This document shows positions 3,480 through 42,567 of a stretch of DNA of 64,000 nucleotides, one piece after another. The stretch covers positions 1 to 64,000 of the forward strand of contig NZ_JAGGOF010000045.1 of the NCBI RefSeq assembly GCF_018614775.1, read 5' to 3'. How positions within the stretch are numbered: position 1 is the stretch's first letter; every line of letters starts with the position of its first letter. The notes under the pieces were generated by a model, which saw only the letters and a list, made by a program, of their open reading frames with translations, made no database searches and had not been told where the DNA came from. The stretch comes from Pseudomonas fluorescens. Lineage in GTDB: Bacteria > Pseudomonadota > Gammaproteobacteria > Pseudomonadales > Pseudomonadaceae. The translations under genes and the position numbers were made by a program.

Positions 3480-5572
<2,093 letters not shown>

Positions 5573-13829: not shown

Positions 13830-14782
13830 GCCTGGGTCCTCGCTTGCGCTATCACCGAGGCGAGTGTTCGTTCCACCAGGGTCAGCTTGAATGCGTTTTC
13901 ATGGGTGGGGGTGGCGTCGGCCAGTAATCGTTGGGTCACCGCTTTCGCCCCGCTGGGCAGCACCGATTCGGCCGCTTCCACGCGCCATGGCTTATGCGCG
14001 ACGCCGCCCAGCGCGACGCGCCCGGTGCCGTCCGATTGAATCACCGCACCAACCGAAACCAGCGCGAACGCATAGGAGGAGCGGTCACGTACCTTCTGGT
14101 AAATATGCGTGCCCCCAATGGGCGCCGGCAGGGTAACGGCGGTGATCAGCTCATTGGGCGCCAGGGCGGTTTCGATATTGGGGGTATTGCCGGGCAAGCG
14201 ATGGAAGTCCGCCATGGCAATGACCCGCGTCGTACCGTCCGGGCGCACGGTTTCAACCTGGGCATCGAGGGCGCGCAGGGCGATGGCCATGTCGCTGGGG
14301 TGGGTCGCGATGCAGGCGTCGCTGACCCCGATGATCGCCGATTGCCGACTGAAGCCTCCGATGGCCGCGCAACCACTGCCAGGTTGGCGTTTGTTGCACG
14401 CTTGGTAGGTGTCGTAGAAGTAAGGGCAGCGGGTACGTTGCAGCAGGTTGCCGGCGGTGGTGGCCGCGTTGCGCAACTGGCCTGACGCTCCGGCGAGCAA
14501 CGCCCGGGACAGCAGGCCGTAGTCCTTTCTGATCCGCGCATCGGCGGCCAGGTCGGTGTTGCGCACCAGTGCGCCAATCCTCAGGCCGCCCTCGGATGTG
14601 GCCTCGATGCGGTCCAGCTCCAGTCCGTTGACGTCGATTACGTGCGTGGGCGTCTCGATCTCCAGCTTCATCAAGTCCAGCAGGTTGGTGCCGCCGGCAA
14701 TGAACCGCGAACCACTGACCTGGGCCGCCAACGCAGCGGCTTCCGCCGGGGATTTGGCACGTAGATATGTAAAAGGTCTCAT
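13826..14782 (-). CDS. paoB: Aldehyde oxidoreductase FAD-binding subunit
   Basis: The 318-residue FAD subunit, identical in length to E. coli PaoB. The FAD phosphate loop is [13 protein letters not shown] (27-39). A cysteine-rich insert, C119 ([11 protein letters not shown]), C129 (CNKR) and C138 (GSGC), matches the region that holds the extra [4Fe-4S] cluster in PaoB and is lacking in most xanthine dehydrogenases. It passes electrons from the paoA iron-sulfur clusters to the acceptor. It overlaps paoA by four bases and paoC by four, so translation is coupled. Confidence 0.9.
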
Positions 14783-15414
14783 ACGTTGACCTCCGCGACT
14801 TCGCTGATCGCCTCGATGATGTTGGAGTACGCCCCGCAGCGGCAGATATTGCCGCTCATGCGTTCCTGGAATTCGCTGGCGATCAGTTGGGGGGCAGCGG
14901 TGAGGCTGGCGCTGGCGTGGCTGGGAATGCCCTGACGAATTTCATCGAGCATCGCCACGGCGGAACAGATCTGTCCTGGCGTGCAATAGCCACATTGATA
15001 GCCATCGTGTTTGACGAACGCCGCTTGCATCGCATGCAGTTTGTCCGGCGTGCCGAGGCCTTCAATGGTGATGATCTTCGAGCCTTCGTGCATAACCGCA
15101 AGGGTCAAGCAGGAATTGACACGCCGACCGTCGACGATGACTGTACAGGCACCGCACTGGCCATGGTCACAACCTTTCTTGGTGCCGGTCAGCTTGAGAT
15201 TTTCCCGCAAGACGTCGAGCAGGGTGGTGCGGGTATCCACGTCCATCGCCCGGGGCTGACCATTGACGGTCAGCCCCACCATGGCCTGGATCGGTCGCGT
15301 CAGGTTCGCCGCAGAGGCTTTGGCGCTGATGAAGGGTGGAAGGGCCACCGTCGCGGCCGTCACCGCGCCGACGATCATAAAGGTGCGTCGGGATATGTTC
15401 AGCAGGTCGTCCAT
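14779..15414 (-). CDS. paoA: Aldehyde oxidoreductase [2Fe-2S] subunit with Tat signal
   Basis: A 211-residue iron-sulfur subunit. A twin-arginine signal ([17 protein letters not shown], residues 8-24) sends the folded complex to the periplasm. Plant-type cluster ligands are C82, C87, C90 and C102 (CDHGQCGAC), and the second cluster uses C141, C144, C191 and C193 (CGYC, CRC). I chose ATG 15414; a TTG 14 codons earlier is possible. It is the first gene of paoABC, so a promoter should lie in the gap above 15414. The enzyme probably detoxifies aromatic or aliphatic aldehydes. Confidence 0.9.
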
Positions 15415-15824
15415 TGATTCTATTCCCGGTTTCGGCAGCGGTTTAGGGGTGGACAAGGCAGGCGGTGCGGGTCTTTGTCGCCCGATACGCTAGTCCTGGC
15501 CACTACTCATCAGAAAAAGTGACTCCCATGCTCGCAGATTGTTTTTGCGTTATCCGGGTATAGAGCTATGCGTCGATTTCATGAATGGGCGGGGAGTACG
15601 GCTGGCTTGGCCTGTAGGGGAGAATGGCGGAATCAGCAGAACGGATGGAGGTGTTTCAGAATGTATCTTCAAGGCAACGTGCTATGGAATCGCTGCCGGG
15701 TGGGCGGGGGACGTTAGAAGGTCTTTTCGAGAAGGATGTATACGCTGTTGATCTGTGAGAATGGCCCTTTGGGTAAATCCAGGACACAAAAAATCGCTTA
15801 GATTGCTGCGCAGGCGTTAGACGT
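15415..15824. other. Non-coding gap between paoA and the four-gene operon
   Basis: About 410 bases with no convincing gene, repeat or tRNA. It must hold the paoABC promoter (minus strand, proximal to 15414) and the end of the operon that finishes at 15825. I see no strong T-tailed terminator and no direct repeats that would mark an insertion boundary. Confidence 0.6.
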
Positions 15825-17183
15825 TCATTTATGAAGAGTCTTTTGCTGACCAACGATTGCCTCTACACCAGGTCCGGAAATGCTCGTTTCTTTAAGCGGG
15901 ACTTCACCCACCGAAAGTGCCCGCTCGATCAGTAACTCGCCACCCTTGTCTTTCAATAAGGCCTGCAACCGCTGGAACTCGCCGCACCAGATGGTTTCAA
16001 TGTCGCGATCTCGCGTCCTGTCGCGGTCGCTGCTGAGGGCGACCGCGCGGACTTGCAGGCGGCCGTTGTCGGCTTTGCCACCCACCTCCACGCCATACCC
16101 CGGAGTGGCGGTTTTGCGCAGCACGACCCGGCCGGTTTCTGCCCAGGCGGTCGCCATGCCTTCGCGCACTTCGTAGCCGAGGCTGGCCAAGCCGCCGAGC
16201 ACGGCTTCGCGACGGGCGAGGGCGGCCTGGTCTTGCAAGTGGGCAGCGATGAGCGTTTTACACTGTTCGATCAGTCCGGCCATTGCCGAGAGCTCGGTGT
16301 CGGTTGTGCAGGCGCCGATGTGACCAAGCAAGGTTGCGTGTTCGATGCCCGTGTAGGTTTCGATTTCGCTGGCCAGATCCCGTAGTTGTTCCAGGCATTC
16401 GCGCTGGCTCTGGAAGTTTCGGGTGGACGCGGCGAGGTCAAGCACCAGGCTGTCGAGCAGCAGGTTACGCCGCTTGGCATCGGTTTGCGTTTCAGCTTTT
16501 TCCAGTGCCAGGAGGAACGGCGCGGCACGCTCGGCGCCTTGCAGCAGTTGCAGCTCAACGATGTGGCGGTCAATGCGCAGCAGCCGTACGTCGCGCGTCG
16601 CATCCGGTTCCCGGGCCGCGATCCATTCGCGCAGGGAAACCTCGGGTTCGTCGACCTTGAGTTGCTGCACCAGGGCGCGTTGGGTATCGCTCAGGGTTGG
16701 CTCCTCGCTTGCCTTGCTCAAGCGGGCGAAACCCTCGGCCAGCAGACGTTCGGCATCTTCCCGACTGGCACCGCTGGCCAATCGTGAGAGGGACTCCAGC
16801 AAGGCTTGATCGACGCTTTCGGGTTTGGCTTGCAAGGCATCAAGCAGGGTCGCGGCGTTTTCCTGGACGCGTCGGTCACGTTGACGGCGCTCGGCGGCAC
16901 GGAGGATCGCGCGTTCCTCGCGATCTTCCAGGTCACGGCGCAGGTGCTCGATCTCCACTGGCACGGCCTTCTGCAGTTCCGCCAATCGGTCTTCTGCCAG
17001 CAGAGCGCGCAGGCGAGCGTGTCGCGCCAGGGCGGCGGCGCGCTCCTGTTCGCTTAACTCGCCAAGCCTGGTGGCCTGTGTCTGCCAACGCTCCACGGCG
17101 CGCTCCAGGCGTTGCAAGTGGCCTTCACAGATGGAGATGATTTCTTCGCGAGTGACAATGCGAACGACCTTGGGACCACTCAT
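15825..17183 (-). CDS. Coiled-coil protein of the AAA+/radical SAM/helicase operon
   Basis: A 452-residue cytosolic protein that I do not recognise. Residues 1-130 are charged and helical with heptad-like patterns (EEIISICEGHLQRLERAVERWQ; LRRDLEDREERAILRAAERRQRDRR), indicating a long coiled coil. Residues 130-330 are helical and acidic. Residues 340-430 look like a compact beta-containing domain (GYEVREGMATAWAETGRVVLRKT; PGYGVEVGGKADNGRLQVRAVAL). No signal peptide or membrane segment. Its ATG overlaps the stop of the 2102-residue helicase gene by four bases, so it is the last gene of the four-gene operon and is probably made in proportion to it. A structural or adaptor role is plausible, but nothing in the sequence proves it. 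Confidence 0.75.
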   Translation of the reverse strand: MSGPKVVRIVTREEIISICEGHLQRLERAVERWQTQATRLGELSEQERAAALARHARLRALLAEDRLAELQKAVPVEIEHLRRDLEDREERAILRAAERRQRDRRVQENAATLLDALQAKPESVDQALLESLSRLASGASREDAERLLAEGFARLSKASEEPTLSDTQRALVQQLKVDEPEVSLREWIAAREPDATRDVRLLRIDRHIVELQLLQGAERAAPFLLALEKAETQTDAKRRNLLLDSLVLDLAASTRNFQSQRECLEQLRDLASEIETYTGIEHATLLGHIGACTTDTELSAMAGLIEQCKTLIAAHLQDQAALARREAVLGGLASLGYEVREGMATAWAETGRVVLRKTATPGYGVEVGGKADNGRLQVRAVALSSDRDRTRDRDIETIWCGEFQRLQALLKDKGGELLIERALSVGEVPLKETSISGPGVEAIVGQQKTLHK

Positions 17184-20100
17184 TGGCAGATTTCCGTATC
17201 AACTGAAGTAGGGCTGGGTTGCGGTGGCGGTTCGACCTTCATGGCTTGTTCGATGGCTTCACGCAGGCGTGCACGCTCGCTGTCGCCATTGTGATACCAG
17301 GCTTGCGATGACACTCGGTGGATGTGCGGGATGGCGCGGTGCAGCACGGATGGGCGCCAGATTTCCCGGGCGCGGGCGCGCTCGAGCAGATTGTGGCAAG
17401 GCGCATCGCACTCGATGCCGATGGCGTACAGGCCCGTACCTGGATTTTCGATGGCGAAGTCGAGACCGAAAGCGTCGCCTTCACTGGCGGGAGCGGCTTG
17501 CCATCCCAGGGAATGAATGAACTCACCGACCAGCCTGACAAAACCATCACGCTGCTGCCCCTGCTCACGCTGCTGGCTGCTGCGGTCGGTCTGCAGGCGC
17601 TCCAGCAGCTTACCGCTGCTGCTGAATTCGCCCGAGGACAGCGCGCGAGCGTACTCCAGATAGCCTTGCAGATAGTCACGGGGGCTGCTGGGGGCACGGT
17701 GCGTGTTGAGCATGTCGGAGATATCGGCGATCGGCATCGACGTGATCATCACCACCTTGCGCCGCGCGCGGGTCACCGCCACGTTCAGGCGCCGTTCGCC
17801 ACCCGTCTGCCCGAGCACGCCGAAGCTGCGGCGGAATGTGCCTTGGCTGTTGCGGCCGAAAGTGGAGGAGAAGACGATGATGTCGCGTTCATCCCCCTGC
17901 ACGTTCTCCACGTTCTTGACGAACACCGACATGTCCTCGCCGTCTTCGCTGCGCTCGCGCTCCTGGGCATAGGCAGCGCGGAACAGTTCATCCTGCTCAG
18001 CGCGCTGCTCCAGGTGCTCTTCGATGAGGTCGGCCTGCTTGCGGTTGAAGGTGACGACACCCACTGAGGGGCGCTGGTCGTAGGGCTCCTGCCACAACTC
18101 GTTGAGGTACTCGACGACCCGTTCGGCTTCCTGGGCGTTGCTCTGGTTCTGATACAGCCCACCGACCTGGATCAGCTCCACGGGCTTGATGCGCTGAATG
18201 CTCGCCTGCGGGTGGCGGACCGGAACGTTAAGGCGATTGCCATAGAACGAGGCGTTGGAAAAGCCGATCAGTTCACGGTAGGCCGAACGGTAGTGGATCT
18301 GCAATGTGGTGCTGGGCAGAGCGTTACGCGCCAGTTGCAGTAGGTCAGGGCAGTCCTTGATTTCACGACGGTTCCAAGTGTCTTCGAACGCTTCGCGCTG
18401 TTCCTCATCCGCGTCTTGGTCAGGCTCGTCGCCGTCGAACATTTCGGCTTCGTCGCTTTCGATACGACTGGAAAAGAAAGCCGTCGGCGGCATTTGCTTT
18501 TCATCGCCGCTGACCACAGTGACCTGACCGCGGAACAGAGTAGGCAGGGCGAACTCAACCGGCATCTGCGAGGCTTCGTCATAGATGACAGTATCGAACA
18601 GGCCTGCCTTGAGTGGCAGTACACGGCTGGCGACGTCGGGGTTCATCAGCCACACCGGACGCAGGCTCATCAAGCCAAGGTTACTGCCCAGTTCGATGAA
18701 TTCGCGCAGGCGCCGCGAGCGTTTGCCCGTCAGGCGGGTGACGTCCTCCCATTGCTTGCGATTGCCCAGGTGATCGAGGTTTATGCCGTTGGCCAGCAGC
18801 TCACGATTGAGCAGCCGCATCTGTGCATCGGCTTGTGCGAGGCTGGCGACTTTGGCGCGGGCTTCGTCCTGGCTGAACAGCAGCTCGGGATGGGTTTGCT
18901 CGATGCGGTGTTTCCAACCCAACCGCGCTTCGCGGTTGAGCAAGCGTCGTACTGCGGCTTCGAGTTGGTCGGGCGCAATGCTGTCCAACTGCTCCTGGCG
19001 TTGGCGCAACAGTGCGAGCAACTCCAGGTCGGCTGTCGTTAACTGACCGGCGCGCCCGCGGAATGTCTGGTAGGCGGCCAGGAAGGGCAGCGCCTGATGC
19101 AGACGATCCAGGCTCAGTTGATTGCTCAGGTTGTGTTCGATGGCGTGCTGCAATTGCTGCACCAGCTCTTCGCCCAGCCAATCGCCGAGTACCTTGAGTT
19201 GCTCGAGGCTGGATTGGCGAACGCCGTGGCGCATCAACGAAGCATCGAGATCGCTGAGCAGCGCCTCGAGATGTTGTTTGTCGCCGGCGAGGGCGGCCTC
19301 GTCTGCTTGTCGGGCGCGAGGCGATTGCGCCAAGGCCAGGGCCAGCGCCTGGATTTCCAGCAGGTGGCGGATGTCGCTCTTCACGAAGCTGGTCAGTTCC
19401 AGGCAGGCTTGCCTGCTCACCGTTTCCAGTTCCAATGCCTGATGCAGGGTACTCAGCTCGGCGCGCAATGGCCGCCACTGGCTTTCCAGTCGGATGGCTG
19501 CCTGCAGGGTTGGCAGCGCTTCAATAACACGGCTTTCCCCTTGGCCTTGAAGGAAGTTGCGCAGTCGCCTGCGCCGCAGCAGATGCAGGGGGTTGATGTT
19601 CGCCATCCAGGAGCGGGCAGCCATGACCTTGGCGCAGTCCTGATCCAGATGCCTGAGGGCTTTGTTTTCGAGCAGGCAGAGGACCGGTGACAAGGCGGGG
19701 GCGTAGTGGTCCTGATCGAGTTGGCCAAGTTGCTGGTCCAGTTGCTGCAGTTCGCCGAGAATCGACTCACCCCGTGGGAGCCGACCCTCTTCGCGGCTGC
19801 GGAACAGCGGCAGCCAGCGCGCAAGACGCAGTCGTTGCTCTTGCTTCAGGTCAAGCAGGGCAGCGACATGGGCCGCTATCCAGTGACGGTACGGCGCCGG
19901 GTCGTCGATCTCGAAGCTGGCAGGGTGTGCCTGCAACGTGGCCTGACGGTTGTTTTCAGCCTGGGTGAAACTGTGCAAATTGTCGGTGAAGGCCTGCAGG
20001 GTCGCCCGGTCGGCGGCGAATGACTGCAACTGCCCCAATGGGCTGCCTTCGTAGCGTGCGGGTAACCACAGGCGAATCAGCGGCGCGCAGCTTTCTTCCA

Positions 20101-23100
20101 GGCGGGTCAGGCTGGCGAGGTCCAGGGAGGCCAGGCGTTGGCGCAAGGCCGGAAACTCGAGCGGAGCGGGGCCGGACTCCAGTTCGATCAGTTCGCCAAG
20201 CAGCCTGCGATAGCTCAGGCCGGTATTTTCATCCAGGCGATGCAGGCTCTGGTGGAAGCGGTCGAGCTCGCCCTCCAGGGCCTCGATGCGGGCCGCGACC
20301 TGTTCGCGCTGGCGCTGGCAACCCTGCGCCTGACTGCCGTTCGTGAACAGGCTTTCCAGCTGTTCGCGGATACCGCGAATGACGGGCTCGCGGTCACGGT
20401 TGACGTCATTGAGCATGACGATGCGTTGACCGAGGCCTTCGGCGACCAGACGTTTGTACACCACCTCCAGCGCCGCATGCTTCTGACAGACAATAAGCAA
20501 GCTGCGCTGGCGGCCGATAGCATCGGCGACCATGTTGACGATGGTCTGGCTCTTGCCGGTTCCGGGAGGCCCCTCGACCAGCAGTCCCGGGCTCTGCCGG
20601 GCCTGGATCACGGCCGCTTCCTGGGACGGATCGCTGGCCACGGTGAAGTAGCGTTGCAGCTCGCCAGGCGGTGCCTCGTGCCCGGTTTCGTCGGCAGTCT
20701 TGAGGCGCAACGCCGTTTCCAGGCCGGTGCCAGCGGGTGACAAGGTCTTCAGTTGGCGCAGGTCCTCACCGATGGCTTGTCCCATGAACGTCACGTGAAA
20801 CAGCACTGCCGCGCAGTCCAGTTCATCTTGGTAGGGAGCAATCTCTACCGTGCTGGCGGGCAGGTTGCCTAGGGCGCGTGAGCGGATGCTGGCGAGCATG
20901 CCGAAGGCGTCCATCACATCCGTCGCACGAATTGACGAGCGCCCTAGCAGTTCATCGGCGGTCTTGCGCCAGCGCTTGCAGGTTTCGGCGCCGAGTACGC
21001 TTTCCAGTGCAGGGTTGAGCCGCACTTCCTCTCGTTCACTGTCAAACGCCAGGGCGACATGACCACGTGAACCCAGCTCCAGCAGCAGTCTCACTGGCCA
21101 CAGCAGCAGCGGGATGATCCGCGTACGCGTGGTGCCGCGAGGGTCGCGGTTGAGCAGGAAAGGGAAGCCCAGGTAGAGCCCGTCGATGCCGGTGTCGCGT
21201 TTGTACAGTGCGCTTTGCCGGTACAGGGCCTGCAAGCGCGATTCAAGTTGGCCGTTGAGCTGAAAACTCTCCGGATCGAGGTTTACTGCTCGGGCATTGC
21301 GTTGCAGTAAATGGTCGAGCAAAGCCGTGGCCGGACTGCGCTGGCTGTTCAGTTCGTTGAGGTCGATCCGTGCGGTGGTCTTGCCGATGCTCATACGCAC
21401 CAGCGGCCCGCGCATCACGGCGGTCACCACCTTCTTCTCGAAGAAGTCGAGGATCTGTGAGACGTACTGCTGTTTCTGTGGTTCCAGCCAATGACTGGTC
21501 GGAATGGCCAGCAACACCAGTGCCTGGGCCAACGGCATACGTCGCTCCAGACGGAACTGCTCGGCCCACTCATCCACTGCCGGCACGCCACAACGAGCAA
21601 ACCCTTGGATGCGCTCGTCGACGCTGCGGTACAGCTCAAGTCGCGAATGCAGCAGCAGTTGGGTCGCCGCTTCGGCGTCGAACCAGCCAACGTCAGCATT
21701 GCTGGCCAGCTCGGCGGCGGCCTCTATGATCGAGGATGCCGAACGGAACTGACTGATCGCGGCGCTGAGCAGCACGATCAGGTCTTCTTCGGCGATCACC
21801 CGGCGCTCCGACAGTGAACTCAGTCCTGGGTGGTCGGTGTCTGGAAACAGGCGTTGGCGCTCCTGCCACTGCGTGGCCAGCTTGGCTCGCGAGGTCGACA
21901 GCAGGAGTATCCGTAGCTGCTCTTCAACCAACTCGATGTGCTGGTGCAAGGCGCGCTGACGAACGTTTTCGGCGCGGGATTTGAGGCGCGACAGCCAGTT
22001 GTCGGTTTGCAATTGCTCGAGCAGGTCCGGGACCGACCCGCTGATCAGGCGATAGCCTTCCAGCGGATGCTCCAGCAGCCACCCTGGCGTGACGATGTCG
22101 CCACGATGGATCAACGGGATTTCCGGGTTGAGGATTCTCAAGGCCAGCATGAGACGGAAGTCGTCCTCGATCCCTTCGTGCTGGACGACCTGACGCAAGC
22201 CAGCGACCAGGGAAGGGGCGAGACCGACCTGCTCGGCCCATGTCACGATCACACCGCGCAGCAAATGGTCCAGGGCCTGTTGCCAGTTATCTGCCTGGGC
22301 TGCCGCCAGGGCGAATACGCCGGGCTTATGGAAGCGACGCTCACCCAGCAGAAGGGTGGCACCTTCACCTTCGTCCGTTTGCTGGACGGAAGAGGCCGGC
22401 GCCTCGACCGCACTACCCTTGAGCCAGCCTTCGACCTGCGGCCATTGCCAGCGCTGATGACGGTCGCGTGCCAGCAGACCTCGCAGCAGCAGGTTCAGAC
22501 GTGGATCGAGATCGTCGGGGATTGGCACGCCGTTGGCCAGTACGTGAATGAGAAACGCATTGGCGTTGATGCCGTCGAAGCAGGCGCCCTGGGTCAGTTG
22601 TTCGAGCAGGATCATGCCCAGGCTCCACCAGTCCGAGGCGGCCGCAACGCCGCCTGCGATGGCTTCTGGCGCCATGTAGCGACTGGTTTCCAGAGGCGAA
22701 ACGATGTCCAGGTCGAACTCGGACAGGCGTGCCGAACCGAAACCGCTGATGACCAGGTCCAGTGGTTCGCGAGAACGTACCAGCAGGCTGGCTGGGCGCA
22801 GGTCACGATGGCGCAGGCCAGCCTCGTTGAACGCATGCAGCGCCAGGCCTAGTTCGTTGACCACATGATGCACGCTGTCGCTGTCGCGAATCACGCTGCC
22901 GAGGTCTGCCAGGGTTCCGCCGGTGAGTTCCTCAATGACCTCGTAGGCACGATCATCCCAGCGGCCGGTGGCGATGATTTCAGGTACGTGCTCGCGTGGC
23001 AGTCGGCGAATCACGTCATAGATCGCCGGGTCCGGTTCGGCACCGGGTCGATACAAGGTCAAGACTGCTCGTTGCGCGGTTTCATCGTGCTCGGCGAGGT

Positions 23101-23488
23101 ATCGCTCACGTACGCCGTCGGTGCTGCTGATCTGGCGGATCAGGCGCCAGCCATCGATCAGCGTCTGGGTGATGCCTTCTGTTTCATTGCTGTCCCGAAG
23201 CGCCCCAGAGGACGTTGCTTGCGCAGGTGAGCTGCCACATTCAAGGCACATCAGATCACCATCGGCCATCGGATGGCCATTTTCGCAGAGCAAGGCCGGT
23301 GCATTTTCCTGGGCCGGGCTGGCTGGCGGGAGGGTTTCTTCGGTAAAGATGGCTTGCGGCCGCCAACCTTCGGCATGGATGGGTTCGCCGGCGAGGTCCC
23401 AGCCGCAGGGTTGTTCCTGAATGAGCCCTTCGCAGAACATTTCCTGGAGGGCGCGCTCGGTTTTGCAGTTGGGGCAGAAACGTATCAT
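17180..23488 (-). CDS. Zn-ribbon/pseudokinase/SF1 helicase/nuclease fusion
   Basis: A 2102-residue protein. Residues 1-85 hold two cysteine clusters (C5, C8, C19, C28; C68, C81, C84), zinc-ribbon-like. Residues 110-355 are a Ser/Thr kinase fold: HRD at 227-229 and APE-type YMAPEA at 271-276 remain, but the lysine strand reads AVLTLYR and the DFG site reads SGFG (248-251), so it is probably a pseudokinase. A UPF1/Dna2-like SF1 helicase has Walker A GPPGTGKS (973-980), motif II DEAS (1637-1640), GDEKQMPP (1661-1668), NVQGDERD near 1862-1869 and NVAVTRARR (1902-1910), with a helical insert of about 600 residues. Residues 1980-2075 match an MTES-type restriction-endonuclease fold (D2010, then IECD 2025-2028). 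It starts 11 bases after the radical SAM gene. Domain calls are firm; the biological role is inferred. Confidence 0.88.
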   Translation of the reverse strand: MIRFCPNCKTERALQEMFCEGLIQEQPCGWDLAGEPIHAEGWRPQAIFTEETLPPASPAQENAPALLCENGHPMADGDLMCLECGSSPAQATSSGALRDSNETEGITQTLIDGWRLIRQISSTDGVRERYLAEHDETAQRAVLTLYRPGAEPDPAIYDVIRRLPREHVPEIIATGRWDDRAYEVIEELTGGTLADLGSVIRDSDSVHHVVNELGLALHAFNEAGLRHRDLRPASLLVRSREPLDLVISGFGSARLSEFDLDIVSPLETSRYMAPEAIAGGVAAASDWWSLGMILLEQLTQGACFDGINANAFLIHVLANGVPIPDDLDPRLNLLLRGLLARDRHQRWQWPQVEGWLKGSAVEAPASSVQQTDEGEGATLLLGERRFHKPGVFALAAAQADNWQQALDHLLRGVIVTWAEQVGLAPSLVAGLRQVVQHEGIEDDFRLMLALRILNPEIPLIHRGDIVTPGWLLEHPLEGYRLISGSVPDLLEQLQTDNWLSRLKSRAENVRQRALHQHIELVEEQLRILLLSTSRAKLATQWQERQRLFPDTDHPGLSSLSERRVIAEEDLIVLLSAAISQFRSASSIIEAAAELASNADVGWFDAEAATQLLLHSRLELYRSVDERIQGFARCGVPAVDEWAEQFRLERRMPLAQALVLLAIPTSHWLEPQKQQYVSQILDFFEKKVVTAVMRGPLVRMSIGKTTARIDLNELNSQRSPATALLDHLLQRNARAVNLDPESFQLNGQLESRLQALYRQSALYKRDTGIDGLYLGFPFLLNRDPRGTTRTRIIPLLLWPVRLLLELGSRGHVALAFDSEREEVRLNPALESVLGAETCKRWRKTADELLGRSSIRATDVMDAFGMLASIRSRALGNLPASTVEIAPYQDELDCAAVLFHVTFMGQAIGEDLRQLKTLSPAGTGLETALRLKTADETGHEAPPGELQRYFTVASDPSQEAAVIQARQSPGLLVEGPPGTGKSQTIVNMVADAIGRQRSLLIVCQKHAALEVVYKRLVAEGLGQRIVMLNDVNRDREPVIRGIREQLESLFTNGSQAQGCQRQREQVAARIEALEGELDRFHQSLHRLDENTGLSYRRLLGELIELESGPAPLEFPALRQRLASLDLASLTRLEESCAPLIRLWLPARYEGSPLGQLQSFAADRATLQAFTDNLHSFTQAENNRQATLQAHPASFEIDDPAPYRHWIAAHVAALLDLKQEQRLRLARWLPLFRSREEGRLPRGESILGELQQLDQQLGQLDQDHYAPALSPVLCLLENKALRHLDQDCAKVMAARSWMANINPLHLLRRRRLRNFLQGQGESRVIEALPTLQAAIRLESQWRPLRAELSTLHQALELETVSRQACLELTSFVKSDIRHLLEIQALALALAQSPRARQADEAALAGDKQHLEALLSDLDASLMRHGVRQSSLEQLKVLGDWLGEELVQQLQHAIEHNLSNQLSLDRLHQALPFLAAYQTFRGRAGQLTTADLELLALLRQRQEQLDSIAPDQLEAAVRRLLNREARLGWKHRIEQTHPELLFSQDEARAKVASLAQADAQMRLLNRELLANGINLDHLGNRKQWEDVTRLTGKRSRRLREFIELGSNLGLMSLRPVWLMNPDVASRVLPLKAGLFDTVIYDEASQMPVEFALPTLFRGQVTVVSGDEKQMPPTAFFSSRIESDEAEMFDGDEPDQDADEEQREAFEDTWNRREIKDCPDLLQLARNALPSTTLQIHYRSAYRELIGFSNASFYGNRLNVPVRHPQASIQRIKPVELIQVGGLYQNQSNAQEAERVVEYLNELWQEPYDQRPSVGVVTFNRKQADLIEEHLEQRAEQDELFRAAYAQERERSEDGEDMSVFVKNVENVQGDERDIIVFSSTFGRNSQGTFRRSFGVLGQTGGERRLNVAVTRARRKVVMITSMPIADISDMLNTHRAPSSPRDYLQGYLEYARALSSGEFSSSGKLLERLQTDRSSQQREQGQQRDGFVRLVGEFIHSLGWQAAPASEGDAFGLDFAIENPGTGLYAIGIECDAPCHNLLERARAREIWRPSVLHRAIPHIHRVSSQAWYHNGDSERARLREAIEQAMKVEPPPQPSPTSVDTEICQ

Positions 23489-23499
23489 GGGTGCTCCAC

Positions 23500-24144
23500 T
23501 CAGCGGCGTCGCGACGCGTGTGCGCTGATCTGTAAATGGTGGCCTTGTTCATGCAACAGATCGCGCAAGCGCAACAGGTCGCCACGTCGTGGGATGCCGG
23601 CCATCCAGACGCTGCCACTTTCGTCAAACATCAGGTCGAGCGCCTTGTCGGCGGGTTCGAGCGAGCGTTCATAGTGGCCAAGGCGTGCCCGGCCCAGTGG
23701 CGTGAGCAGGTTCAGGCGTTGATTGTCACTGCCGCGCAAGGCCATGGTCTGGCTGAGTGCTTCGATATAGGGGTCGCTGATCAAGGCGTCTATCAAGCCT
23801 TTGGTCTGAAGCAAGGGCTCGTCGAGTTGCTCAAGGGAGTAGCCGCTGTAGATCAGGATGTCGAGATCGGTCAGCCGTCGTAGGCCTTCGAGCAGCGCAC
23901 GCAGGGCGTCGAGCTGGTCGAACGGCTCCCCTCCGGAAATCGTGATCCCTTCTGCCTGGCGCAGCCAGGGAGTTATCTGTTCAAGCAGTTGCTCCAGCGA
24001 CAGGCGCCGATGCCCTGGCCCCCAGGTATCGGCAGAGATGCAGCCCGGACAGCGGATGCTGCAGCCTTGAAACCAGATACCCAGGCGCCGCCCCGGACCG
24101 AGGGTGGTGACCGGAAAATGTATGCGCGACAGACTGAGGTCCAT
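23500..24144 (-). CDS. Small radical SAM protein (activase-like)
   Basis: A 214-residue radical SAM protein of the NrdG/activase size class. The cluster-binding motif is C28-x3-C32-x2-C35 (GCSIRCPGC), preceded by IWFQG; the SAM-binding GGEP is at 71-74 (TISGGEPFDQ). Such enzymes use a [4Fe-4S] cluster and S-adenosylmethionine to make a 5'-deoxyadenosyl radical, and close relatives activate glycyl-radical enzymes. No glycyl-radical enzyme is encoded nearby. It starts two bases after the AAA+ gene and precedes the helicase fusion by 11 bases, so it is an integral part of the operon. The target is unknown; it may modify a partner protein or a nucleic acid. Confidence 0.85.
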   Translation of the reverse strand: MDLSLSRIHFPVTTLGPGRRLGIWFQGCSIRCPGCISADTWGPGHRRLSLEQLLEQITPWLRQAEGITISGGEPFDQLDALRALLEGLRRLTDLDILIYSGYSLEQLDEPLLQTKGLIDALISDPYIEALSQTMALRGSDNQRLNLLTPLGRARLGHYERSLEPADKALDLMFDESGSVWMAGIPRRGDLLRLRDLLHEQGHHLQISAHASRRR

Positions 24145-24146
24145 GT

Positions 24147-25979
24147 TCAGCGACGTTCCATCTTCAGTCCGGTGATGTCCAACTCGGTAATGGTCAAGTG
24201 CTCGCCCGGTTGCGCGTCCTGATCGAACAGTGCCCGCGACAGGGGATTGAGCAGGCGGGCTTCCAACTGGTTACGGATGCCCCTGCCACCGTTGGACAGA
24301 TCCTGCAGGCAGAGGCTGTGCAGTGCCTGACGTGCCTGGGGAGCCAATTCGATGAATAGGCTTTGTCCCTGCAGGTCGCTGAAGGTGGCGTTGACCATCT
24401 GTTCGAAGATCTGCACGGCAACGTCTTCGCGGATGAAGTCGAAGACGATGATGTTCTCGCCGATTCGATTGAGGATTTCCGGTCGGTTGAGCACCAGCTT
24501 GAAATAGCGGTCGATCTCGCTGTGCACCTTGTCCTGGACCTGCTCGAAGGCTTCGCCCGGCAGGACGTTGGCGACGCGTTCGCCATTGTCGCCCTGGCGA
24601 TAGATGCCCAGGTTGGAGGTGAATACGATCAGGGCCTCTGAAAAGTACACCCGATCACCGCGTCCTGAGGTCAGCACGCCGTCGTCTAGGATCTGCAGAA
24701 ACTTGTCGAGGATTCGCGGGTGGGCTTTTTCGATTTCATCGAAGAGCACCACGCTGAATGGCTTCTCGCGGATGGCATTGGTCAGCTCGCCGCCGACGTC
24801 ATAGCCGACGTAGCCGGGCGGTGCGCCGATCAGGCGTTGATCGGCATGCTCGGCGCTGAATTCCGACATGTCGAAGCGGATGTACGCGCTTTCGTCGCCG
24901 AACAGCAGGCTGGTGATGGTTTTGGCGAGTTCGGTCTTGCCCACGCCGGTCGGTCCCGCGAGAAAGGCTACGCCCCGTGGGCGGTTGCCTTTGCGACTGG
25001 CGCCGACGCCTGTCATCGCGCGCTTCACGATATCGAGCATGTGCGTCACTGCATGCGCCTGGCCTTTGACCCGTTGGTGGACGAGCGCGTCCGCCTGGCG
25101 GATACGCTGGCGATCGATCTTCAGCCACGGATCCTCAGTGACACCGATCTTGTAGCGGCGCACTGCATCGGCAATCTGCGGCATGGATACGCCCTCGACC
25201 CGCGCCAGTTGCGCAATGGCACTGAGATCGAGCAGCAGCAATCCTTCGGTGTTCTGTACGAAGGCATCCACGGCTTGATTCATGATCTCTTCGCTGGCGC
25301 CCTGGCTGCCACTGAGCCCTTTGAGCAGCGCCGGCGCCAATGCGCGGCGGGCCAGTTGATCGGGTTTGGACACGGGAATGTGGCGCAGGCGCGGGTTATC
25401 GACCAACAACCAGTCGGGCAAATCACCTTCTTTTTCCACCAGCCACAGCAGGGTATTAAAGAACGGTTTGCGCTGCTCCGTGGCCGGACGGCTGCGAGCC
25501 TGATGGGATTGCACCAGGGCCTGGGTGAAGAGCTGGTGTTCAGTTGCGCTGAGGGAGTCGTTGCGAACCACCAGCCGCGAGGCAAAGTCAATGATCAGTG
25601 CGACAGGTTCGCCAGCACGACCCACCAGCCGCGACAGGGTGGCGCCCAGCAGGTCGATACCGGCCGGCGCGATGCCGTTCACCGGCGTCAGGCCAAGTTC
25701 CTGAAGCAACGTCTGGCCGGCCTCCGGGTCGGAGCCAGGTTTGCCGACTGTGCGAAAACCGGCCACCGGATCCCAGGCGATGACCTGGGCATAGCCGGCA
25801 TCGAGCAAGGCATTACAAAGGGTCTGGTTGATGCTCTGCGCGGTCACCGTGCCGGGCGCCACTTCGCTGGCCTGCAGGTCGCGGATGTTGCCTGACAGGA
25901 CGAATTGGCTCTTCAGCGGCAGAAAGCGCAGAAGGTCTCGTAGCCAACGTGGGCTTTCAAATATGGCAATCCCTGACAT
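24147..25979 (-). CDS. Clp/Hsp100-like AAA+ ATPase with degenerate first domain
   Basis: A 610-residue protein, first gene of the four-gene operon. The C-terminal half is a ClpA/ClpB second-domain ATPase: Walker A GPTGVGKT (342-349), pore loop GAPPGYVGYD (385-394), Walker B VLFDEIEKAH (411-420), sensor 1 TSN (454-456), arginine-finger region NRPEILNRI and sensor 2 GGRGIRNQ. The N-terminal half (about 20-260) follows the order of an AAA+ fold (FVLSGNIRD; VALIIDFAS; WLLVDNPRLRHIPVSKPDQLARRAL) but has no Walker A, so it seems to be an inactive first ring. There is no ClpS/N-domain and no ClpP-docking loop that I can recognise. A threading or remodelling machine for a partner protein is likely. 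Confidence 0.85.
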   Translation of the reverse strand: MSGIAIFESPRWLRDLLRFLPLKSQFVLSGNIRDLQASEVAPGTVTAQSINQTLCNALLDAGYAQVIAWDPVAGFRTVGKPGSDPEAGQTLLQELGLTPVNGIAPAGIDLLGATLSRLVGRAGEPVALIIDFASRLVVRNDSLSATEHQLFTQALVQSHQARSRPATEQRKPFFNTLLWLVEKEGDLPDWLLVDNPRLRHIPVSKPDQLARRALAPALLKGLSGSQGASEEIMNQAVDAFVQNTEGLLLLDLSAIAQLARVEGVSMPQIADAVRRYKIGVTEDPWLKIDRQRIRQADALVHQRVKGQAHAVTHMLDIVKRAMTGVGASRKGNRPRGVAFLAGPTGVGKTELAKTITSLLFGDESAYIRFDMSEFSAEHADQRLIGAPPGYVGYDVGGELTNAIREKPFSVVLFDEIEKAHPRILDKFLQILDDGVLTSGRGDRVYFSEALIVFTSNLGIYRQGDNGERVANVLPGEAFEQVQDKVHSEIDRYFKLVLNRPEILNRIGENIIVFDFIREDVAVQIFEQMVNATFSDLQGQSLFIELAPQARQALHSLCLQDLSNGGRGIRNQLEARLLNPLSRALFDQDAQPGEHLTITELDITGLKMERR

Positions 25980-26071
25980 GTTTCAGCTCGTAACGTTGGG
26001 TCGATACGGGCAGGGTATTGCTCAATGCGCTCATTTGCCAGTGCGCTGCTACGAAAAGTTTTGTTGAGAGC

Positions 26072-26093
26072 CTGGACGCCTGGAAGCGTCCAG
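26072..26093. repeat. Inverted repeat upstream of the four-gene operon
   Basis: CTGGACGC (26072-26079), six-base loop, GCGTCCAG (26086-26093): a perfect 8-base stem about 93 bases upstream of the AAA+ start and about 97 bases below the end of the ABC ATPase gene. No T-run follows the stem in the minus direction, so it is not a clear terminator for the ABC operon. An operator for the downstream system is equally possible. Confidence 0.35.
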
Positions 26094-26189
26094 AAAAATC
26101 ACTGCGCTCTTCGAGAATGGAAAGGCGAGTTTCCCATCCCGCTGGTGCTTGAGCGCCCGGAGCGCAGGATGCAGGGCTCCTTGGCGGGA

Positions 26190-27029
26190 TCAATCAGCAT
26201 GATCCTGCGGCCCATCATGAAGCAGATGAAAAATGTTGCGCTTCATGCGAATGAATTCCGGGTCCATGACCATGTCGAGATTACGCGGACGACCGATGGG
26301 CACGTCGAGCACTTCCTTGATCCGGCCAGGGCGGGCGCCCATCACGAATATCCGATCGCCGAGCAGGATCGCCTCATCGATGTCATGGGTGACGAACAGC
26401 ACGGTCTTCTTGCTGTGCTCCCAGACCTTGAGCAGCAGTTGCTGCATGTGCAGGCGGGTCTGGCTGTCGAGTGCACCGAACGGTTCGTCCATCAGCAGGA
26501 TCTGCGGGTCATTGGCCAGGGCCCGAGCGATCGCCACGCGTTGCATCATCCCGCCGGACAGCTGTTTGGAATAGTTGTCCGCAAAGCGCCGCAGGCCGAC
26601 CTCGTTCAGGTAGAACTCGACGATGTCCTTGCGCTCGGCGGCGGGCATGCCCCGGCGCTTGAGGCCGAACTCGATGTTCTGGCGCACGCTCAGCCACGGG
26701 AACAAGGTGTAGCCCTGGAACACCATGCCGCGATCGGCACCAGGGCCGTCGACTTGCTGGCCGCCGACGTAGATATCACCCGCGGTCGGCTCAGCCAGGC
26801 CGGCGGTCAGGTACAGCAGGCTGGATTTGCCACAACCCGACGGGCCGACCAGCACCGCGAACTGCTGGTCGGGAACATCGAATGAGACCTTGTCCAGCGC
26901 CGTGAACGTACCGCCTGCTGGCGTCTTGTATTGCAGGGTAACGTTGTCGACCCGCAGGCGCGGTGTGGCTGGCGCACTCACTGGCATCGGTCGAAGCGGG
27001 ATCGGAGAGGTTGCGGTTACTGAGCCCAT
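26190..27029 (-). CDS. ABC transporter ATP-binding protein (TauB/SsuB-like)
   Basis: A 279-residue ATPase of the nitrate/sulfonate/taurine importer class. Walker A is GPSGCGKSS (62-70); the Q-loop follows VFQGYTLFPW; the signature is QLSGGMMQR; Walker B is ILLMDEPFGALD; the switch histidine is in VTHDIDEA. I chose ATG 27029. The same frame is open much further upstream, but that part runs antisense-like through the permease gene in another frame. It overlaps the permease gene by 13 bases and is the last gene of the importer operon. The substrate class (organosulfonate, other small organic acid or amine) is not determined by sequence. Confidence 0.92.
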   Translation of the reverse strand: MGSVTATSPIPLRPMPVSAPATPRLRVDNVTLQYKTPAGGTFTALDKVSFDVPDQQFAVLVGPSGCGKSSLLYLTAGLAEPTAGDIYVGGQQVDGPGADRGMVFQGYTLFPWLSVRQNIEFGLKRRGMPAAERKDIVEFYLNEVGLRRFADNYSKQLSGGMMQRVAIARALANDPQILLMDEPFGALDSQTRLHMQQLLLKVWEHSKKTVLFVTHDIDEAILLGDRIFVMGARPGRIKEVLDVPIGRPRNLDMVMDPEFIRMKRNIFHLLHDGPQDHAD

Positions 27030-27820
27030 GCGGCCACCTTCAAGCGAAGAAGTCGGAAAAGTTGATCGGTGATCAGGCCCAACAGGCCGATGACGGCGAT
27101 CGCCAGGAAAATCACGTCGACCTGGAACCCGCGCATGGCCTTGAGGCTCAGGTAGCCCAGGCCACTGGAGGCCGCGACCAGTTCGGCCACCACCAGGTAG
27201 GTCCAGGCCCAGCCCATGGTCACGCGCAGGGTGTCCAGCACGCCGGGCAGCGAGGCGGGCGCGATGACGTGCAGCACCGCGTCCGTGCGGCTGGAACCAA
27301 GGGTGTACGAGGCGTTGATCAGGTCTTTGGAGATCCCTTTGGAGACGTCGGCGATCATCACCAGTTGCTGGAAAAACACGCCGAAAATGATGATCGACAC
27401 GCGTTGTTCCAGGCCGATGCCGATCCACAGGATGAACAGCGGCACGAACGAGGTCACCGGCAGGTAGCGGATGAAGTTGACCAGCGGTTCGAGAAACGCT
27501 TGCACGACCCGGAAGCTGCCCATCATCAGGCCGATCGGCACCGCGACCACCGATGAAACGATGAAACCGACCATCACCACTTCCACGCTGGCCCAGACAT
27601 GCGGCCCCAGGGTGCCGTCGCGGGCCAGGCGCATCGCTGCCTCGAAGACTGCGCCCGGTGTCGGCAGGAACATCGCGGGCACCACGTCGCCATAGGAAAG
27701 ACAGGCCCACAGGCCGATCAACAGGGCCCAGGCCAGACCGCTGGCGCTCCAGATCACCTGCACCGGCAGGCTGGTCTTGGGCGTCAGGCAGCGGTTGAGC
27801 CACGAATTACGCTTGGACAT
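27017..27820 (-). CDS. ABC transporter permease (TauC/SsuC-like)
   Basis: A 267-residue inner-membrane permease with about six hydrophobic segments. The coupling loop (EAA-type) is visible in DLINASYTLGSSRTDAVLHVIAPASLPGVLDTLR. The segments around VEVVMVGFIVSSVVAVPIGLMMG and IRYLPVTSFVPLFILWIGIG are typical of the family. It lies 14 bases downstream of the binding-protein gene and overlaps the ATPase gene, so all three are one transcription unit. Confidence 0.92.
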   Translation of the reverse strand: MSKRNSWLNRCLTPKTSLPVQVIWSASGLAWALLIGLWACLSYGDVVPAMFLPTPGAVFEAAMRLARDGTLGPHVWASVEVVMVGFIVSSVVAVPIGLMMGSFRVVQAFLEPLVNFIRYLPVTSFVPLFILWIGIGLEQRVSIIIFGVFFQQLVMIADVSKGISKDLINASYTLGSSRTDAVLHVIAPASLPGVLDTLRVTMGWAWTYLVVAELVAASSGLGYLSLKAMRGFQVDVIFLAIAVIGLLGLITDQLFRLLRLKVAAWAQ

Positions 27821-27834
27821 GAGGTGCTCCTGGT

Positions 27835-28821
27835 TTATTTCGGGCTGATGAAACGGTTGTCGATCAGATCGCTGTAGCTCACGTTGTATGGCTTGCCCTG
27901 CAACTCGCTGGCGGTTTCGTTGGCCAGCTTGATGACCGTGGCGGCGTCACCCTGGCTGCCGTTACTGCCTAGCAGCTTTTCGCTCATGGCCTGGTCGTAG
28001 AAACGCACGCCCTTGGCGGCGGCTTCCAGTTCAACCGGGTCTGCGAGGTAGCCACCGACCCCTTTGGCCATGATTGCGTAGGCCTCTTTCGGATGGTCCT
28101 TGGTGTATTGCACGGCCTTGTAGAGACCGCTGACCAGCGCCTTGACGTCGGCCGGTTGCTTGTCGATCACCTCACAGCTCAGTGCCACGACGTCGACGAT
28201 CACCCCAGGCGTCGTGCTGCTGTCCACCAGCACCTTGCCTTGCTGCTTGTTGCGCACGGTGGTCAGGTGCGGTTCCCAGGTCACCGCGGCCGGTACGCGG
28301 CCAGCGATGAAAGCGGTGGCCGCGTCGTCGGCGGTCATGTTCTGGATGGTCAGGTCACTCATCTTCATGCCGGCGTTCTTCAGCAGGTAGTTGAGCCAGA
28401 ACTGCGATACCGAACCTTCGTTGACCGCAACGGCCTTGCCCTTGAGGTCCTGCAGGCTGTTGACGTCCTTGCCCACCAGCACGCCGTCGCCGCCGTGGCT
28501 GTCATCCAGCGCGGCCACGGCCTTGAAGCAGAATTGCGGACGGTACTTGAGGATTTCATCGAGGGTCGAGGCCGAGCCGGACAATTTGCCCGAGGCCTGG
28601 GCTGCCATGTACATCGAGGCTTCCTCGATGGTTGGCAACTCGACGGTCAGGCCCTGGTCCTTGAAATAGCCCAGGTCCTTGGCCAGGTACAGGGTGCCGT
28701 AACCCACCCAGGTGGTGTGTCCGATGGACAGCGTGCCGGCTTGAGCACCACTGGCAACGCCGGCGGCGATTACAGTCAGGGCCAGCGGACGCACGCAACG
28801 CGATACGAAAGACTTGATCAT
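27835..28821 (-). CDS. ABC transporter substrate-binding protein (TauA/SsuA-like)
   Basis: A 328-residue periplasmic binding protein. The signal peptide is residues 1-28 (LALTVIAAGVASGAQA, cleavage after AQA). The mature part begins GTLSIGHTTWVGYGTLYLAKDLGYF, typical of the NitT/Tau family, with DLKGKAVAVNEGSVSQFWL and VPAAVTWEPHL as ligand-lobe landmarks. ATG 28821 is preceded by GGGAG. It is the first gene of the importer operon; about 130 bases upstream lies an AT-rich element that recurs before the aldehyde dehydrogenase gene. Confidence 0.92.
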   Translation of the reverse strand: MIKSFVSRCVRPLALTVIAAGVASGAQAGTLSIGHTTWVGYGTLYLAKDLGYFKDQGLTVELPTIEEASMYMAAQASGKLSGSASTLDEILKYRPQFCFKAVAALDDSHGGDGVLVGKDVNSLQDLKGKAVAVNEGSVSQFWLNYLLKNAGMKMSDLTIQNMTADDAATAFIAGRVPAAVTWEPHLTTVRNKQQGKVLVDSSTTPGVIVDVVALSCEVIDKQPADVKALVSGLYKAVQYTKDHPKEAYAIMAKGVGGYLADPVELEAAAKGVRFYDQAMSEKLLGSNGSQGDAATVIKLANETASELQGKPYNVSYSDLIDNRFISPK

Positions 28822-28950
28822 TTGACACTCCCGGAATCGTGGTTTTAGTTCGTTATTTCTCGGGGCAGTGGGGCTAGGTAAAACAGAATGCTTATGGCCT
28901 CTTGCGGACCTTTTCGCCTCTAGGGGCAGGGTTGATGGTGGCCGATGTCG

Positions 28951-28998
28951 GGGGATAGGAAAATTAGTAAATATGTGGTTGCTGATGAGGAAAAAACT
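28951..28998. promoter_or_regulatory. AT-rich element, copy 1 (importer operon)
   Basis: In the 283-bp gap upstream of the binding-protein gene lies GGAAAATTAGTAAATATGTG followed by GTTGCT and an A-run before ACTGGGG. It closely matches 32288-32335 upstream of the aldehyde dehydrogenase. Two near-copies in front of two operons suggest a common regulator site, perhaps for the LysR gene at 32489. The rest of the gap shows no gene. Confidence 0.5.
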
Positions 28999-29104
28999 GG
29001 GGTGGGAGAGGGGCTGTGAATCGCGTTCCAACCTGGGGCGCGCGCGCTGGATAGTGCCGCTTCCTGGTGCAGCAAGCGGCGCTTCCTCCCGTCATTTCAG
29101 GTCT

Positions 29105-42172: not shown

Positions 42173-42210
42173 ACGCCGGGGGCCGATTTTCAAAGGTGCT
42201 CGGGATGCCG

Positions 42211-42480
42211 CTACTCGTCGGCACTTTTCATATGAAAAATCGTGTACGGCAGGATCAGCGTATCGGCGACAAAACTGAATGGCAGGTCAATGACTGCAAA
42301 CGGAGCCAGGGCACTCATGGCTCCGGCGTCGTCGTCCGCCGCGCCTTTGATGATCTCCAGATCGACAGTCACGCCGCAGTAAGGATGGAGGCCGCACATG
42401 TGCCCGTAGCTGGAGCTTTCGTTGACAGTCGCGCACCCTGTCAGCAGCGCCATGATCATAGCCGTTAGCATGAGCCGCAT
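42211..42480 (-). CDS. Small YceK-like lipoprotein (DUF1375)
   Basis: An 89-residue lipoprotein. The signal ends LLTGC with the lipidated cysteine at residue 16. The mature part has HMCGLHPYCGVTVDLEIIKG and FAVIDLPFSFVADTLILPYTIF, the YceK/YidQ family pattern. GAGGG precedes the ATG. The family has no established function. It converges on the MFS gene. Confidence 0.8.
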   Translation of the reverse strand: MRLMLTAMIMALLTGCATVNESSSYGHMCGLHPYCGVTVDLEIIKGAADDDAGAMSALAPFAVIDLPFSFVADTLILPYTIFHMKSADE

Positions 42481-42567
42481 GATGTACCCTCGCCCTGAAA
42501 GAGCAAGACTGTAGCACTGAAACCGGCCGCCCCCTGTCGTTACGCGGAAAGTTTTGCAGTGCGTCTT

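Follow-up and report, generated by a model that had tools for sequence, protein, structure and literature searches.

Four abutting genes on the minus strand of Pseudomonas fluorescens contig NZ_JAGGOF010000045.1, at positions 15825-25979 of the 64,000-nucleotide stretch of DNA that was analyzed (the window), encode an AAA+ ATPase, a radical SAM enzyme, a large helicase-nuclease, and a coiled-coil protein, and the question raised by this locus is what such a combination does for its host. An earlier note, made from the sequence alone, had proposed a candidate undescribed four-gene conflict system. The present analysis supports that proposal in that the operon is conserved, is mobile, and matches no named system in the libraries searched, observations from which we infer a defensive role. 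The explanation that fits best, to which we assign a probability of about 0.6, is a mobile helicase-nuclease system directed against phages or plasmids and operating under a control core made of the other three proteins. In the list of open reading frames (ORFs) of the window the genes are as follows.

24147-25979, minus strand: gene 1, an AAA+ ATPase of 610 residues, with a dead AAA+ domain and a ClpB-D2-like motor (Pfam, NCBIfam, alignment)
23500-24144, minus strand: gene 2, an NrdG-like radical SAM enzyme of 214 residues (Pfam, alignment)
17180-23488, minus strand: gene 3, a protein of 2102 residues with zinc ribbon, pseudokinase, DUF4011, superfamily 1 (SF1) helicase, and MTES_1575 nuclease (Pfam, PADLOC, NCBIfam, alignment)
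15825-17183, minus strand: gene 4, a coiled-coil protein of 452 residues that starts MSGPKVV and has an alpha/beta C-terminal domain (ORF, AlphaFold2)

The overlaps or gaps of at most 11 bases that had been described between the genes are present, gene 1 being separated from gene 2 by 2 bp and gene 2 from gene 3 by 11 bp, with a 4-bp overlap between genes 3 and 4. The source is a draft genome of 5.58 Mb (95% complete), whose closest relatives, judged by the operon, are Pseudomonas.

Conservation and Distribution of the Operon

Relatives were collected by one pattern scan of a species-genome collection with an alignment of the ATPase N-terminal domain, and the best 80 of 155 relatives were examined; the residue counts given below are for the window plus those relatives kept by length. 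The four families are conserved as a unit, as a neighborhood check had been expected to reveal if they form a system, the order of all four genes being kept at 75 of the 80 loci from other genomes. Three of the remaining five loci run off their contigs (L050, L052, and L078), one has no frame for the radical enzyme (L044), and one has the ATPase only, on a contig of 9.5 kb (L089). With gene starts picked by script, the spacing in the 75 loci is −4 to +23 bp between ATPase and radical enzyme (75/75), −11 to +30 bp between radical enzyme and helicase (73/75), and −14 to +62 bp between helicase and coiled coil (73/75). The pairwise distances of the four proteins are correlated (r = 0.886-0.955, 71 rows).

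The hosts include Pseudomonas, Stenotrophomonas and relatives, Burkholderiales, Enterobacterales, Sphingomonas and other alphaproteobacteria, and one Acidobacteria bin. Within this range the operon is rare: 3 of 57 genomes searched contain the coiled coil, and 8 of 398 genomes of the phylum contain the N-terminal domain of the ATPase (in four cases with E < 1e-100), the source genome being counted in both searches. These counts, and the differing sites of the block described below, do not agree with families that are always core and vertically inherited, one of the outcomes that had been named as contrary to the proposal.

In plasmid records, the same eight sequences from Rhizobium and Caballeronia head separate searches with genes 1, 2, and 3, the four-gene order having been checked in two of these eight. 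Among viral contigs, L102:4783-11350 has a partial copy (helicase residues 822-2086 and the coiled coil) directly beside an integrase-like gene, L116 has one ATPase at the contig end, and two distant radical enzymes are present at 31-32% identity. In G003 (L021:5726-6700) there is a break in the helicase frame close to the start, and the radical enzyme frame is open, which may reflect decay or a sequencing error.

Movement between Sites

The operon is moved as a block between sites. The block and its upstream edge in the window are as follows.

15793-26070, no strand assigned: block common to copies at other sites (blastn, 90-91% identity)
25980-26070, minus strand: conserved leader of 91 bp 5′ of gene 1, the sharp edge of the shared block (alignment of five copies, blastn block ends)

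Copies in G010, L022, L023, and L029 match the window by blastn at 90-91% identity over about 10.25 kb, and the aligned window positions are 15823-26070 for G010 (L020), 15793-26070 for L022, 15816-26070 for L023, and 15823-26069 for L029; the shared block begins 90-91 bp upstream of gene 1 and stops at about the gene 4 end. Beyond it, these loci do not match the window at ≥150 bp, except for window 42209-42602 in L022; G010 and L029 have a common downstream side. When 76 upstream flanks were compared at the DNA level they fell into 61 groups, eight Pseudomonas loci having one common flank. It is the Pseudomonas cases that carry weight here, because many of the flank comparisons span distant genera, in which a DNA match is not expected. 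In a tree of the ATPases, one Stenotrophomonas copy lies within a Pseudomonas group and an Azoarcus bin lies beside Achromobacter (bins may hold foreign contigs); otherwise the tree broadly follows host families.

A comparison with eight relatives that have no coiled coil disclosed the transporter of the right flank but, in the stretches compared, not the left flank of the window beside it, and hence no clean empty site among them. One 67% match to window 3534-5441 was found in L120. No 10-12-base words are common to 15601-15830 and 25981-26200. It may be added that window 42209-42602 is 91% identical to L022:20279-20674, just past the cassette in Pseudomonas sp. PSB18.

The flanks suggest some association with defense genes. 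ORFs in the flanks were called by a longest-frame rule and compared with PADLOC at 1e-20; 130 flanking ORFs near 54 loci gave 46 models, each matched by one ORF, a tally of models and not of distinct ORFs, and 121 control ORFs gave one (mad3). Among the 25 models listed are HamA, HamB, JetA, PDC-S46, PD-Lambda-4_B, PDC-S15, and the regulator RtcR. The 25 of 145 Pfam families listed for the flanks are mainly metabolic and regulatory, but integrase and transposase domains are among them.

The Helicase-Nuclease Fusion

Gene 3, which has Pfam matches to Pkinase, DUF4011, AAA_11, AAA_12, and MTES_1575, is the putative effector, and its parts are as follows.

23237-23476, minus strand: zinc-ribbon region, residues 5-84 (seven Cys, six in 74/74 and one in 73/74)
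22433-23128, minus strand: pseudokinase, about residues 121-352 (Pkinase, 1.5e-18; catalytic motifs lost)
20993-21256, minus strand: DUF4011 segment, residues 745-832 (PF13195, 3e-9, 37.5 bits, cut-off 22.2)
17723-20653, minus strand: SF1 helicase, about residues 946-1922 (AAA_11, 1.3e-13; AAA_12, 5e-23)
17252-17542, minus strand: MTES_1575 restriction-type nuclease, residues 1983-2079 (PF18741, 4e-17)

The helicase Walker A, the DE pair, and the three arginines of GGERRLNVAxTR are kept in all 74 aligned gene 3 sequences. The nuclease scores 62.5 bits against a PF18741 cut-off of 38.2, and its residues Asp2010, Glu2026, and Asp2028 are present in 74, 73, and 72 of the 74, respectively. The kinase fold retains the VAIK lysine in 0/74 and the DFG aspartate in 1/74, with the HRD aspartate in 69/74; since the first two residues are lost across the family, it is regarded as a pseudokinase and not as an active Ser/Thr kinase. 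The 2102-residue fusion described in the earlier note is therefore correct in its zinc ribbons, SF1 helicase, and restriction-type nuclease, but its kinase fold is without catalytic residues. Disrupted kinase domains are in the majority also among those of a published survey of conflict systems (PMC7159879).

Comparison with Known Systems

The earlier note did not recognize the operon as a named system, and the library searches bear this out: in NCBIfam all four proteins score below the cut-offs of the models, and the top PADLOC match (PADLOC models being shown without cut-offs) accounts for half of gene 3. No description or functional study of the operon was found in the literature searched, which was mostly open-access.

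The nearest known relatives of gene 3 are ProA, PDC-S37, and Hhe, with which its DUF4011-helicase-nuclease half aligns (504.8, 489.9, and 321.5 bits, respectively). However, the NCBIfam scores for ProA (NF058533) and Hhe (NF042953) are far under the cut-offs of 1500 and 2000, and gene 3 differs from both proteins in being fused to zinc ribbons and a pseudokinase and in being accompanied, at 75 of 80 loci, by three partner genes. The PDC-S37 match, for which no cut-off is given, pairs in its best stretch profile positions 289-1345 of 1550 with residues 947-2086 of 2102; this single-gene candidate covers only the helicase-nuclease half. Further PADLOC matches of gene 3 are to Hhe (220 bits) and MkoA (161 bits) and, over the kinase, to mad6 (76 bits) and PD-T4-6 (66 bits). 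MkoA shares an SF1 helicase with gene 3 and has a kinase domain, but Mokosh is defined by a PLD-family domain together with a helicase; the PLD family is not among the Pfam matches (E ≤ 0.1) of the four proteins, which have instead an MTES_1575 nuclease, an ATPase, a radical enzyme, and a coiled coil. Gene 1 resembles DolB of Dodola and ClpB-type ATPases in its ClpB-D2-like motor, with PADLOC matches over the ATPase core to PDC-M37B (96.7 bits) and DolB (62.7 bits) and 255.9 bits against ClpB (TIGR03346) over residues 262-599, but it does not reach the ClpB cut-off of 1232.1, has a dead N-terminal AAA+ domain of its own, and has other partners.

A radical SAM domain beside AAA+ ATPases is a feature of the FtsH ternary systems with a radical SAM effector, which are predicted conflict systems (Kaur 2020, PMC7159879). 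They share the radical SAM domain and AAA+ ATPase with the present operon but contain FtsH and a vWA protein, whereas the four proteins here have no vWA match in Pfam.

The Three Proteins of the Putative Control Core

Gene 1 had been described as a Clp-like ATPase, and both AAA_2 and ClpB_D2-small were found in it by Pfam; the refinement is an additional N-terminal domain.

25125-25979, minus strand: dead AAA+ domain of gene 1, residues 1-285, without Walker A (AlphaFold2, VIA-align)

Residues 1-285 have no Pfam match, and comparison with sequence profiles of the Protein Data Bank (PDB) gave nothing at E ≤ 1. The AlphaFold2 model of the domain has a predicted local distance difference test score (pLDDT) of 89.2 and a predicted template modeling score (pTM) of 0.86, and in VIA-align its top row is p97 D1 (Z 13.1, root mean square deviation (rmsd) 3.3, 207 aligned residues, 14% identity). 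The P-loop is located in the second domain, where Walker A, Walker B, sensor 1, and both arginines of NRPEILNR are identical in 79/79 aligned ATPases, as in an AAA+ motor of the ClpB-D2 type. The two glycines and two tyrosines of a GYxGY pore loop, which is a feature of protein-threading ClpB-type motors, are likewise each kept in 79/79.

Gene 2 is, as had been proposed, a radical SAM enzyme of activase size, with Pfam matches to Fer4_12 (7e-24) and Radical_SAM (3e-7) and a CxxxCxxC motif with cysteines at residues 28, 32, and 35, all three of which are present in 78/78. Its top NCBIfam model is NrdG (TIGR02491) at 74.3 bits, below the cut-off of 126.1; the remaining activase models score lower, and PADLOC gave no match at E ≤ 0.1. 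Glycyl-radical partners were surveyed in 43 carrier genomes (those of 40 of the 80 loci, and G000, G010, and G003). PF01228 proteins were found in 4 of the 43, all Enterobacterales, and NRDD in 15, these four included, so that neither was found in 28, among them the source genome (95% complete). Because most carriers have neither, the target of gene 2 is probably inside the operon, barring an unrecognized glycyl-radical enzyme.

The fourth gene does encode a coiled-coil partner, and two features in it are of interest.

15918-16157, minus strand: C-terminal alpha/beta domain of gene 4, residues 343-422 (strands 352-357, 363-368, 375-382, and 416-422, and helix 389-412, in the model)
15984-15986, minus strand: codon of the invariant Cys400 of gene 4 (Cys in 75/75)

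The protein has no Pfam family above cut-off and no PADLOC match at E ≤ 0.1. Its AlphaFold2 model (pLDDT 87.5, pTM 0.77) has a strand at residues 5-10, and because all other strands lie in the C-terminal domain, the N terminus would be expected to pair with that domain in the modeled fold. The C-terminal domain, which includes Cys400, the sole invariant cysteine of the protein, is on these two grounds a candidate target of the radical enzyme.

No known fold could be assigned to gene 4. Foldseek gave no match at E ≤ 0.001, and comparison with PDB sequence profiles gave a best E of 0.1. The VIA-align rows for an EFC domain (Z 8.1, 83 aligned, rmsd 2.8) and the Chk1 KA1 domain (Z 7.9, 89 aligned, rmsd 2.8) are too low for an assignment; the KA1 row spans model residues 3-419, as would be expected if the N-terminal strand is part of the C-terminal domain. 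DUF1257/Ycf35 as the C-terminal fold is unsupported (0.2% probability), and PF06868 matched 0 of 150 genomes of the phylum. The N termini of 74 coiled coils begin MSGPKVV in 64 cases, MSSS in eight, and MSAS and MNEIRS in one each, and position 3 in the alignment of 75 is G in 65, S in 8, A in 1, and a gap in 1. The MSSS and MSAS starts are from enterobacteria (L053, L068, L073, L085, L091, L092, L094, L097, and L099); the MNEIRS start (L086) is perhaps misplaced.

Related Cores with Other Effectors

A match to the radical enzyme was present in 77 records, from which thirteen annotated plasmid loci were chosen manually, and in all 13 an AAA-family ATPase is near the radical enzyme, although about 9 kb away in Geminocystis (L128). 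In five of them (type B, from Moellerella, Leisingera, Photobacterium, Acinetobacter, and Polaromonas) five consecutive genes encode a helicase, a PIN protein, a coiled coil, an ATPase, and a radical enzyme, the helicase families having been checked in Moellerella (L017) only. The type B loci are L017, L019, L129, L130, and L131, one of which is on the Acinetobacter plasmid pNDM1_010055. Type E, from Aristaeella, has a DUF4011 helicase, kinases, an FHA protein with zinc ribbons, and a phosphatase. A proteobacterial genome (L175:988-9699) has a putative coiled coil, called by position and by eye, followed by an ATPase (39% by BLAST over its whole length), a radical enzyme, an FHA-like protein, and a kinase, with no helicase recognized; both HRD and DFG are intact in this kinase, which has 29% identity with the gene 3 pseudokinase (E 3e-23). 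Since zinc ribbon, kinase, and helicase stand as separate genes in related loci, gene 3 looks like a fusion of the three, as judged from sequence comparison.

The ATPase N-terminal domains of the window type (type A), type B, type E, and Geminocystis are homologous at 98-99.5% probability. Cysteine is found by eye at the matching place of the coiled coil in all five type B loci, in Aristaeella, and in L175, L176, and L177, but not in Calothrix (L015), and profile comparison did not confirm the coiled-coil C-terminal domain across types. Because related cores occur with other effectors, these three proteins (ATPase, radical enzyme, coiled coil) have the appearance of a control core that is portable.

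A further arrangement, type C, consists of an ATPase, a DUF1257-like protein, DUF2997, and a radical enzyme in Paenibacillus, Arthrobacter, Rhodococcus, and Paenarthrobacter, DUF1257 being shown by Pfam only in Paenibacillus; these gene sets are on Paenibacillus and actinobacterial plasmids (L016, L018, L127, and L134). Their ATPases are not clearly homologous to gene 1 and were rejected as its close kin (the probability is 0.3% for gene 1 and 54% for the PIN type). A radical SAM enzyme beside an AAA ATPase is present also inside a contractile injection system cluster on a Treponema succinifaciens plasmid (L132:7899-10054).

Proposed Function and Alternatives

In the mechanism that we favor, gene 3 would be the effector, unwinding invading nucleic acid with its helicase and cutting it with the C-terminal restriction-type nuclease, and its zinc-ribbon and pseudokinase end may serve to restrain or target it. 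The effector would be licensed by genes 1, 2, and 4 as a portable control core. The coiled coil may serve as a scaffold whose N-terminal strand packs with the alpha/beta domain bearing Cys400; the substrate of the radical SAM enzyme would belong to the core, this domain being the likeliest candidate; and the ATPase, with its threading pore loop, may pull or remodel the scaffold or the effector and so turn the nuclease on. The order of events and the target of the radical enzyme are what we infer from this arrangement. A role in defense is preferred because the four-gene order is so widely kept, because the distribution is patchy and the block is mobile and found on plasmids, because the effector is related to the named anti-phage proteins ProA, Hhe, and PDC-S37, because catalytic residues are kept in all three enzymes, because related cores recur with other effectors, because most carriers have no known glycyl-radical partner, and because of the PADLOC models matched in the flanks, as set against the controls.

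A bolder proposal, which we put forward only tentatively, is that the ATPase, NrdG-like enzyme, and coiled coil are an unrecognized immunity control module, in which a radical or modification would be placed on the invariant-Cys domain and a ClpB-type motor would thread or release it, thereby arming effectors. That the effectors would be interchangeable, being a helicase-nuclease, a helicase with PIN, or a kinase-FHA-phosphatase set, is held with the same reserve. If true, immunity would here be switched by radical chemistry, in a manner unlike that of viperin-type radical enzymes, which make nucleotide poisons. If the operon is defensive, it would be an immune system whose helicase-nuclease is controlled by a protein-threading motor and a radical SAM enzyme of the activase type, and whose core is found again beside other effectors. 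It also offers a candidate target for the NrdG-like enzyme in genomes where NrdD and a PF01228 enzyme were not found.

Several observations weigh against this reading of the operon. No close relative was found in phage records, and none there covers 80% of the ATPase. Four of 12 plasmid records with a coiled-coil match have no close matches to genes 1 and 2 and look like remnants; as two of these four keep part of the helicase, remnants do occur on plasmids. The flanks are mostly metabolic or regulatory, and the neighbors in the window read as metabolic genes, so that the operon is not a typical resident of defense islands: of the island association that was to be checked, some flanking defense genes were found, but there is no standing island. 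The case for Gly3 in the MSGPK start as the site of a glycyl radical is weakened, since 10 of 74 coiled coils, all from Enterobacterales, start otherwise and Gly3 is not a universal radical site. A link between DUF2997 and the coiled-coil domain is weak (43%) and concerns the PIN-type coiled coils only. Finally, a DUF4011 gene and a radical SAM gene border the right flank of defense hotspot cDHS1 in every P. aeruginosa isolate, and serve there only as edge markers (PMC10250203). Among the 80 loci this species is represented only by PA7, which has one copy of the operon (L037). The edge pair may be this operon, PA2725-PA2728 of PAO1, and if so the operon is possibly fixed in P. aeruginosa. Changes in PA2727, which is called helicase-like or a histidine kinase, appear in two reports (PMC3697988 and PMC4918941).

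Twenty-five genomes of the genus of PA7 bear on the same point. The other 24 match the PA7 flank at 75-83% identity at the best place and, because this identity is so low, P. aeruginosa beyond PA7 is probably outside the set. The radical enzyme (E ≤ 1e-12) is present in two of the 25, one being a partial match of 33% identity, and PF13195 in five; four of the six PF13195 places outside PA7 were inspected, and genes 1, 2, and 4 are not beside them.

Of the alternatives, destruction of incoming plasmid DNA by the helicase-nuclease as an anti-plasmid or anti-conjugation function only, which overlaps the favored explanation and is not additional to it, is possible but doubtful in this exclusive form. 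The operon copies on plasmids are in its favor, as is the one match among flanking ORFs to JetA, a part of the anti-plasmid system Wadjet, but nothing direct separates plasmid from phage targets. An accessory operon for DNA repair or stress tolerance, in which the helicase-nuclease would process host DNA that is damaged or stalled and would itself be reactivated by the ATPase and radical enzyme after oxidative or redox damage, would account for the mainly ordinary chromosomal flanks, for the ClpB-D2-like motor, and for a DUF4011-radical SAM pair that is core in P. aeruginosa (PMC10250203); it is unlikely in view of the rarity and patchiness of the operon in the phylum, its movement as a block, its carriage by plasmids, and the relation of its effector to anti-phage proteins. 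A switch driven by phosphorylation of partners by the gene 3 kinase domain is suggested by related stand-alone kinases in Aristaeella and L175, which keep HxD and DFG and adjoin FHA and, in Aristaeella, phosphatase genes, but it is disfavored as improbable by the absence from gene 3 of the VAIK lysine (74/74) and the DFG aspartate (73/74), though the HRD aspartate is kept (69/74). It is very improbable that gene 2 encodes a class III ribonucleotide reductase activase of the ordinary kind, in the operon by happenstance, for although NrdG and other activases are its best NCBIfam models, its 74 bits are under the NrdG cut-off of 126, NRDD was not found in its own genome or in 27 of 42 other carriers, and the radical enzyme adjoins the ATPase in 77 of 80 loci.

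Surroundings of the Operon

Promoter and terminator scans gave fewer matches than in shuffled sequence, and a tRNA scan and an Rfam scan found none. The immediate neighbors of the operon in the window, read by eye from the ORFs, are an aldehyde-oxidase-like set at 11631-15456 and an ABC transporter at 26190-29031.

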